NCBI RefSeq assembly: GCF_007097145.1
Contig: NZ_VJVZ01000004.1
Location: 1-64,000 of the forward strand
DNA from: Flavobacterium zepuense
GTDB taxonomy: Bacteria; Bacteroidota; Bacteroidia; Flavobacteriales; Flavobacteriaceae
Reading direction: 5' to 3'
DNA length: 64,000 nucleotides
Both the position numbers and the translations under genes were made by a program. Of this stretch, positions 33,974 to 35,545 are shown piece after piece. The notes under the pieces were generated by a model. That model saw nothing but the letters and a program-made list of their open reading frames with translations, ran no database searches and was not told where the DNA came from. The stretch's first letter is position 1, and each line of letters starts with the position of its first letter.

Positions 33974-34276
33974 TTAAGAATGCGCCCTGATTTTTTGTTT
34001 TCTTTTCATTAGCAAGCGCTCCATAGAATCTGCCGCGAGCTCTACCGCCTCTTCAAATGTTTTACATTGTTTTTTTACTATAAATTCATCCCCCGGGACG
34101 ATTAGCTTAATTTCAGCGATCTTATTCTGTTTCTCACTCGTATTATCCAGTTTAAAGTACACATCAGAGTTTACAACCTTGTCATAATACTTTTCAAGCC
34201 TATCCAATCTTTCCTGAACATAGCCAACCAATTTCCTGTCAACATTAAAGTTAACTGCATGAACATTTACTTTCAT
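33974..34276 (-). CDS. hpf: Ribosome hibernation-promoting factor, short form (HPF/RaiA family)
   Basis: 100 residues of the S30AE fold: KVNVHAVNFNVDRKLVGYVQERLDRLEKYYDKV, then acidic and basic strands ending in the RLLMKRKQKIRAHS tail. It has no long C-terminal dimerisation domain, so it is a short HPF or YfiA type. It binds idle ribosomes in stationary phase. It is 26 bases downstream of xerC and just upstream of the tRNA cluster. Confidence 0.92.
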   Translation of the reverse strand: MKVNVHAVNFNVDRKLVGYVQERLDRLEKYYDKVVNSDVYFKLDNTSEKQNKIAEIKLIVPGDEFIVKKQCKTFEEAVELAADSMERLLMKRKQKIRAHS

Positions 34277-34302: not shown

Positions 34303-35205
34303 TTAGGATTTACCCTGGTTACGCGGGTGCGCATCCTTATACACCTTTTTTAGTTCGGCAAGACTGCTGTGGGTATATATTTGTGTAGATGATAAACTCG
34401 CGTGACCCAGTAACTCCTTTACTGAATTTAAATCGGCCCCGTTGTTTAATAAGTGTGTTGCAAAAGTGTGCCGCAAAACGTGTGGGCTCTTTTTTACCTT
34501 ACCGGAGACAATACTAAAGTAACTATTTATTAACCTGTACACAAAAGATTCGCTTATTTTTTTGCCCTGCAAACTCACAATTAACATATCGGTGTTTGCA
34601 ACCGCACCAAGCTCCCGTTTTTTATCAAGATACTTATCAACAAGCACCGCAGTGCAATCCAGCACCGGCAATATACGCTCTTTGTTGCGCTTACCCAACA
34701 CCTTTAGGGTTTTACCTGCCCTGTCGTAACTTGCCAGGGTTAAACCAATAAGTTCTGCACGACGCATACCGGTAGTGTACAGCAACTCAATAATAAGGCG
34801 GTTACGGATACCCTCAAAATCATCAGGATAGTCATTAAAATCGATAACATCCAGCAATTCTTTTTCCGAGAACGGCACCTGCACCTTTTTCTCAGTTTTA
34901 AGTGACTTGTGTTTTTGCAGCGGGTTGATCTCTATTTGCTTAGACTTAAGCAAAAATTTGTAGAATGATTTTAGAGAAGACATTTTTCGGTTAACCGATG
35001 TATTGGCTATACCAGCCTCTACAAGCGCTACGATCCAGCTGCGTACCTGGCTGTAATTAACCTCTTCCAGCGTAGCGCCATCGTCGTGCTGCTGTATAAA
35101 GACCTCAAATGCAGTTACATCATCTAAATAAGCACGCAGGGTTAACAGGGAATAATTTTTTTCCTTGTGAAGGTAATCGCGGTATGCCTCTTTGCTATTT
35201 GCCAT
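34303..35205 (-). CDS. xerC: XerC/XerD-type tyrosine recombinase
   Basis: 300 residues: an N-terminal SAM-like core-binding domain (~1-90) and a catalytic domain with R148 (TGMRRAEL), HVLRHTF (His242, Arg245), GHAS (His268) and nucleophile Tyr277. It resolves chromosome dimers at dif with its partner. The start is ATG 35205, which directly abuts the T-run of the rpsU terminator. XerC versus XerD cannot be told with certainty. Confidence 0.92.
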   Translation of the reverse strand: MANSKEAYRDYLHKEKNYSLLTLRAYLDDVTAFEVFIQQHDDGATLEEVNYSQVRSWIVALVEAGIANTSVNRKMSSLKSFYKFLLKSKQIEINPLQKHKSLKTEKKVQVPFSEKELLDVIDFNDYPDDFEGIRNRLIIELLYTTGMRRAELIGLTLASYDRAGKTLKVLGKRNKERILPVLDCTAVLVDKYLDKKRELGAVANTDMLIVSLQGKKISESFVYRLINSYFSIVSGKVKKSPHVLRHTFATHLLNNGADLNSVKELLGHASLSSTQIYTHSSLAELKKVYKDAHPRNQGKS

Positions 35206-35211
35206 AAAAAA

Positions 35212-35249
35212 ACCGTTAACAGCAAAGATAAACTTTTGCTGCTAACGGT
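35212..35249 (-). terminator. Terminator after rpsU, abutting the xerC start
   Basis: Arms ACCGTTA.CAGCAAA and TTTGCTG.TAACGGT pair with one A-C mismatch. On the minus strand it is followed by seven T residues that run straight into the xerC ATG. Confidence 0.88.
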
Positions 35250-35275: not shown

Positions 35276-35470
35276 TTAGTTCTCTACAGAGTCCCTTAAT
35301 CCTTGTATGTAGGCTGCTTTTTGTACTTGAGCTCTTCTTTTAACAGATGGCTTCGTGAAAGCCGTACGGCTCCTAAGCTGACGCACAGTTCCGGTTTTGT
35401 CGAATTTACGTTTGTAACGCTTAAGCGCCCTATCGATATTTTCTCCGTCTTTAATTGGTATAATCAACAT
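35276..35470 (-). CDS. rpsU: 30S ribosomal protein bS21
   Basis: 64 residues (MLIIPIKDGENIDRALKRYKRK-type start, with a basic middle RRAQVQKAAY). The frame is open 20 codons further, but that part contains the promoter and Shine-Dalgarno site, so ATG 35470 is the start. In Bacteroidota, bS21 with bS18 and bS6 shields the 16S anti-Shine-Dalgarno tail, and its own gene is one of few with a strong site. A terminator follows. Confidence 0.97.
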   Translation of the reverse strand: MLIIPIKDGENIDRALKRYKRKFDKTGTVRQLRSRTAFTKPSVKRRAQVQKAAYIQGLRDSVEN

Positions 35471-35478
35471 AAGTATAA

Positions 35479-35486
35479 CACCTCCT
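35479..35486 (-). promoter_or_regulatory. Strong Shine-Dalgarno site of rpsU (AGGAGGTG)
   Basis: An 8-base perfect complement of the 16S 3' end (CACCUCCU), 8 bases before the rpsU ATG. Other genes here lack such sites, for example rplK and tuf. It fits known translational autoregulation of rpsU in Flavobacteriia. Confidence 0.93.
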
Positions 35487-35499
35487 CTCGTTAAGGGTG

Positions 35500-35530
35500 C
35501 AAACTTATAACTATTTTTTATACCCACCAA
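35500..35530 (-). promoter_or_regulatory. rpsU promoter (TTG - N20 - TAAGTTTG)
   Basis: TTG at 35530-35528 and TAAGTTTG at 35507-35500 on the minus strand, at near-ideal spacing. The leader would be ~25 bases and contain the Shine-Dalgarno site. Confidence 0.8.
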
Positions 35531-35545
35531 AATTATTATACAATT

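Follow-up and report, generated by a model that had tools for sequence, protein, structure and literature searches.

An extended Shine-Dalgarno sequence before rpsU in Flavobacterium zepuense, its probable role in bS21 autoregulation, and additional bS21 genes lacking it in Flavobacteriaceae

Why does the gene for ribosomal protein bS21 carry a very strong Shine-Dalgarno (SD) sequence in a genome where such sequences are otherwise rare? The question is raised by rpsU of Flavobacterium zepuense, seen in the first 64,000 nucleotides of contig NZ_VJVZ01000004.1 (hereafter the window). The gene lies at 35276..35470 on the minus strand and encodes a 64-residue protein matching Pfam family PF01165 (Ribosomal_S21) with 65.2 bits and the NCBIfam S21p entry with 55.8 bits. 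It is the single bS21 match across its own genome assembly, in which a bS18 gene was also found, and its product has a tyrosine at position 54 (Tyr54). The longest open frame through rpsU begins at a TTG at 35530, upstream of the promoter box discussed below. However, an in-frame stop is only one codon away from the same ATG in 25 of 110 Flavobacterium-group loci, so that homology favours the ATG at 35470..35468 (minus) over the longer TTG frame. The position 35471 used in an earlier annotation of the locus from its sequence (the original prediction) is one base 5′ of the A. Its further claim, that the longest frame would mislead automatic start calling, is not supported as stated.

This assembly yielded a single 16S gene (L002, whose end reads GGAACACCTCCTTTCTAG); its tail is GGAACACCUCCUUUCU, with an intact anti-SD, and the sequence preceding the rpsU ATG is ACGAGAGGAGGTGTTATACTT. 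The original prediction described an eight-base SD, and this core, AGGAGGTG at 35479..35486 on the minus strand, is indeed present eight bases 5′ of the ATG. The complementarity is nevertheless longer than stated: the extended SD GAGAGGAGGTGTT (35477..35489, minus) forms 13 contiguous pairs with the 16S tail, 12 of them Watson-Crick and one G-U. Pairing of GAGAGGAGGUGUU (35489..35477, minus) with 16S AACACCUCCUUUC yields −22.8 kcal/mol, while pairing restricted to the eight bases CACCUCCU yields −13.9 kcal/mol. The earlier observation is confirmed and was an understatement. A published criterion for autoregulation is a pairing of the rpsU leader with its own 16S tail stronger than −13 kcal/mol, and the window's leader, at −22.8 kcal/mol against its own tail, lies beyond this value; our energies come from ViennaRNA duplexfold and those of the published work from free_scan (PMC9976891), so that the numbers are only roughly comparable.

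A promoter had also been proposed just before the SD. The consensus of the −7 promoter element is TAnnTTTG, and a candidate matching it, TAAGTTTG, is found at 35500..35507 on the minus strand; by the spacing rule for −33 and −7 elements, the TTTG at 35528..35531 (minus), which precedes the −7 box by 20 nt, is a candidate −33 element. The proposed box is therefore there, but a single box alone is not significant: TAnnTTTG occurs 105 times in the window against 86.7 expected, a count reached by 2 of 100 shuffles, so that a lone box tells little. If the transcript starts as predicted for the rpsU mRNA of F. johnsoniae (PMC9976891), the leader would be 25 nt long and lie at 35471..35495 (minus).

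The strength of the rpsU SD was set against that of other genes in about 0.37 Mb of the 4.76-Mb genome plus the window. Among 2010 ATG contexts on both strands of the window, that of rpsU ranks first, and the second strongest (−18.1) falls within the EF-Tu frame. A sample of 242 ORFs of at least 100 residues, drawn from the window and from twelve genome stretches of 20 kb each, the one carrying the S10 gene among them, has a median first-ATG energy of −2.0, with none at −13 or below; when the best ATG among the first 60 codons is considered instead, one of the 242 ORFs reaches −14.0.

Could the AGGAGGTG match simply be a chance occurrence in a purine-rich leader? Taken alone, the 8-mer is indeed not significant, with 0.97 occurrences expected per shuffled window. 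Similarly, AGGAGGT followed by ATG after 4 to 10 bases occurs at 45 sites in the whole genome and at 49 in a reversed control, showing no excess. Chance does not account for so long a pairing at a suitable spacing from the rpsU ATG, nor for its conservation, to which we return below.

The same genome-wide list gave occasion to consider a wider SD regulon, an idea dropped as the 45 sites do not surpass the control. The strongest site after rpsU (L097, −20.4) was also discarded, being inside a long frame with 505 codons open upstream. Besides rpsU, three of the 45 sites (−11.6, −17.3 and −17.3) open an ORF of at least 40 residues preceded by no more than ten open codons; they represent one ORF of 69 residues and a 50-residue ORF present twice. 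Sites with longer upstream open frames may be further starts, for example one (L110) at −14.0 before a possible ORF of 228 residues. The 50-residue ORF, with AGGAGGTG four bases 5′ of its ATG, is near-identical in the loci L109 and L111 (position 1513), on contigs C7 and C8 of the same assembly. No NCBIfam entry matches the copy in L109, and a frame overlapping its end is possibly recombinase-like, as judged by eye.

Conservation was assessed in 110 Flavobacterium-group loci, namely the window, the best 80 named loci obtained with its bS21 as query (72 carry Flavobacterium in their title) and 29 from the window's genus. The genus and phylum sets each contributed 29 new loci, one of 30 being already included, and the genus, order and phylum loci are best-scoring matches rather than a random draw. 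The 110 loci may include the same genome twice, 106 being distinct in their 80 upstream bases. All 110 have an SD pairing of −19.2 to −24.7 kcal/mol, an ATG start, a TAnnTTTG ending 27–31 nt 5′ of that ATG and a Tyr54 in bS21. In a mock region 25–45 nt upstream, −13 was never reached in these loci. The bases before the ATG differ slightly, being GTGTTATACTT in the window and GTGTCTATATT in many relatives.

Outside the genus, the pairing is seen to change together with the 16S tail. A family of the same order (f5), which appears to be Chryseobacterium-like by the published UCUCA tail, has the 16S tail GGAACAUCUCAUUUUA and the rpsU leader AAAATGAGATGT. In all ten of its genomes with the UCUCA tail, the pairing energy is −14.9 when the genome's own tail is used and −4.8 with the Flavobacterium tail, and nine more loci of the family, in which only leaders were compared, show the same leader bases. 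This covariation of anti-SD and rpsU in Chryseobacterium-type Flavobacteriales is credited to Jha et al. 2021 in the report of McNutt et al. 2023 (PMC9976891); the logic of rpsU-16S pairing there is that of the window, which differs in having the canonical CCUCC tail. A chance match is thus rejected, because the 13-bp pairing lies at a functional distance, is conserved in all 110 loci and shifts in step with the 16S tail in all ten of these genomes, and we give it a negligible probability.

A strong SD on rpsU is nonetheless not universal. In 22 genomes whose own tail could be used (eight others gave no 16S match), 14 pair at −14.9 or stronger, comprising the ten of the Chryseobacterium-like family plus G066, G161, G208 and G449, and eight pair weakly, at −0.7 to −8.3 (G062, G067, G071, G073, G075, G097, G145 and G247). 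In two samples of best-scoring loci from the order, 9 of 30 and 4 of 19 reach −13 or below with the Flavobacterium tail, which was used for all loci outside the genus in this comparison and understates the energies for lineages with other tails; in the phylum sets, many of the starts are guesses at TTG or GTG. Closer to the window, a single-copy genome of its own family with the Flavobacterium tail (G098, locus L148) has a bS21 gene without an SD (−0.9). The existence of this genome and of the weakly pairing ones shows that bS21 can be expressed without the loop considered next.

How might the SD function in the window? McNutt et al. 2023 studied F. johnsoniae with rpsU′-gfp reporters, strains in which bS21 was depleted, truncated or altered by Y54A, and purified ribosomes (PMC9976891). 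As reported there, rpsU′-gfp expression rises 3- to more than 4-fold upon bS21 depletion, truncation or mutation of Tyr54, while reporters without the SD show no rise upon bS21 loss. Initiation on rpsU is faster with purified ribosomes deficient in bS21, although in one of the assays this rate advantage on rpsU mRNA is gone at 37 °C. The same report predicts a native leader of 25 nt for a gene transcribed alone, and describes Flavobacteriales as typically having a single very strong SD, that on rpsU. The window resembles this system in genus, in gene, in the extended SD matched to the 16S tail, in Tyr54 and in the rarity of other SDs; it may also share the short leader, as predicted, and a gene transcribed alone. 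It differs in belonging to another species and in being known from sequence, the F. johnsoniae system having been established by experiment.

These likenesses, along with the long pairing, its rank, conservation and covariation, and the single strong copy of the multi-copy genomes described below, argue that the window's rpsU is an autoregulated rpsU of a Flavobacterium, to which we assign a probability of nearly nine in ten. Normally, the 16S 3′ tail of the ribosome would be held by bS21 together with bS18 and bS6, and most mRNAs would be read without an SD. In a ribosome without bS21 the freed tail would form 13 pairs with the leader of rpsU, leading to bS21 synthesis, and the newly made protein would complete the ribosome and so close the loop. 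That such a loop operates in this species, as well as the position of the transcription start, we infer by analogy. The original prediction had proposed just this autoregulation by bS21-lacking ribosomes; the proposal is supported by its demonstration in F. johnsoniae and by the agreement of the window with the sequence features tested. The reading, covariation included, has already been published for F. johnsoniae (PMC9976891).

The same leader could be viewed as a signal for strong, constitutive initiation, as would suit an abundant ribosomal protein, with no feedback involved. A short-leader rpsU reporter is generally around 6-fold brighter in F. johnsoniae (PMC9976891), so that this leader works efficiently also when bS21 is there. 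Yet no SD is seen before the ORFs of at least 100 residues around the S10 gene, which by sequence encode ribosomal proteins, every one being at −6.3 or weaker by its first ATG. The response of the F. johnsoniae reporters to bS21 loss, seen only with the SD, equally speaks against a signal without feedback, as does the presence of a strong SD on only one bS21 copy in each of the 34 multi-copy genomes described below. We therefore hold a purely constitutive signal to be improbable.

Another possibility is that the SD is secondary and that the main regulator is some other element of the leader, be it the choice of transcription start, a structure or a leader-binding protein. Relatives also resemble one another in the leader bases beyond the SD, the 110 loci having just 34 distinct 25-nt leaders. 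The predicted leader, however, is only about 25 nt long and has little predicted structure (two stretches were folded, with z-scores of 0.11 and 1.14), which leaves little room for another element, and the pattern across F. johnsoniae strains is reported to be virtually equal with leaders of 178 and 25 nt (PMC9976891). Such an element is very improbable as the main regulator, and SD-based autoregulation remains our preferred reading.

The surroundings of the gene are compatible with a monocistronic rpsU. An alpha-amylase gene is situated in front of it, and behind it a terminator-like hairpin of the intrinsic type, with 15 pairs, an 8-nt loop and a following T-run, occupies 35212..35249 on the minus strand; the 61-nt stretch containing it has a folding energy of −22.8 kcal/mol (z −6.8). 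Then comes a xerC-like tyrosine recombinase gene (34303..35205, minus; Pfam Phage_integrase, 124 bits; top NCBIfam match XerC, below cut-off), whose ATG directly adjoins the T-run. A possible −7 box, TATCTTTG, can be seen inside the hairpin at 35223–35230 (minus), and the rpsU terminator and the xerC promoter may thus be a single element. In a narrow search, a TAnnTTTG within such a hairpin, with an ATG at most 12 nt away, was found in 5 of 81 loci including the window. Two genes behind rpsU, after xerC, lies a hibernation-factor-like gene (Pfam Ribosomal_S30AE; 33974–34276, minus), and another locus (L305) has rpsU, xerC and hpf in the same order, with a similar 100-residue ORF.

The single bS21 gene of the window's genome is typical of its genus, where none of the 58 genomes with a match (61 searched) has more than one. 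Across Flavobacteriaceae, by contrast, a hand count found more than one bS21 gene in 154 of 396 genomes, 140 having two and 14 having three. We took 34 multi-copy genomes from 33 genera (loci L134–L142 and L285–L344), 30 of them picked from the 154 mostly for their few contigs, plus four others, and scored their leaders with the Flavobacterium 16S tail throughout. In all 34, exactly one bS21 copy is at −17.5 or stronger. The remaining 35 copies, including a second copy in G642 that is below the Pfam cut-off, are at −12.0 or weaker with a median of −1.4, and when scored with the UCUCA tail are still at −4.3 or weaker. Six multi-copy genomes lie outside the 34, G152 and G181 from the same order and G239, G292, G331 and G433 from other orders. 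Both copies are weak with the Flavobacterium tail in G181 and G239, so that the rule of one strong copy is limited to the family.

The two kinds of copy also differ in their neighbours, as identified by sequence motifs. A xerC-like gene follows the strong copy in 33 of 34 cases, as it does rpsU in the window, and follows a weak copy in none of 35. A sigma-70 (rpoD-like) gene directly precedes 19 of the 35 weak copies and none of the 34 strong ones; the one sigma gene scanned has RpoD models as its top matches, below curated cut-offs. Tyr54 is present in 34 of 34 strong copies and 33 of 35 weak ones. A palindrome, TTTAGGATAGTCCTAAA, before many of the SD-less paralogues was considered as a metal-regulator box and rejected, its left half being the last codons of the rpoD-like gene. 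A single origin of the SD-less paralogues was likewise abandoned: the tree, built from 64 columns and accompanied by long-branch warnings, places 28 of the 35 in one clade (support 100/100) and seven in another (99/90), so that they probably arose at least twice.

Genomes with several bS21 genes, and so potentially with different ribosomes, are known from Francisella and other phyla, in a list in PMC9976891 that does not name Flavobacteriaceae. The Flavobacteriaceae paralogues differ from those in comprising one copy with the SD and others without it; the window's genome, with one bS21 gene, stands apart from both. Neither this pattern nor that of the phage genes below was found in a full-text literature search, including the accessible text of PMC9976891, PMC10783764 and PMC9723584, and the occurrence of extra bS21 copies without a strong SD in Flavobacteriaceae looks new.

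Viral contigs too contain bS21 genes. From 143 candidates the best 80 were taken (L345–L424), and 79 were used, L406 being left out as its match does not start at residue 1; they correspond to 35 distinct protein/leader pairs. Among these best 80 of 143, none of the 35 distinct loci has a strong SD with respect to the Flavobacterium tail, the best being at −9.7. One locus, L346, has the leader of the Chryseobacterium-type family and reaches −14.9 with the UCUCA tail, so that it is not an SD-less case; it may be host DNA. With that tail the other 78 loci used from the best 80 are at −8.1 or weaker.

Taken with the paralogues, these genes allow a further, tentative reading, which we think possible but rather unlikely. 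The strong SD would be a sensor of bS21-lacking ribosomes, and Flavobacteriaceae would have evolved bS21 genes which feed that sensor without obeying it. Since the circuit would sense ribosomes without bS21, a bS21 gene with no SD would escape it, and complete ribosomes would translate both the SD-less paralogues and the SD-less genes of viral contigs. If the product of such a gene can cap the 16S tail, as Tyr54 in 33 of the 35 paralogues would allow, more of it would silence the SD copy and change which bS21 the ribosome pool contains; occupation of the site by an SD-less bS21 would, in other words, switch the SD copy off. The window's genome has the SD copy only, so that for this organism the bypass would concern invading genes alone.

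For F. zepuense itself, the window would be one more well-formed case of the published example of specialised ribosomes in bacteria. For the family, the pattern seen in 34 of 34 multi-copy genomes would outweigh that single case in importance: it may amount to a natural experiment, in which the feedback signal is retained by one bS21 gene of two or three, and would offer a directly testable route for a cell, or a phage, to replace the bS21 in its ribosomes.
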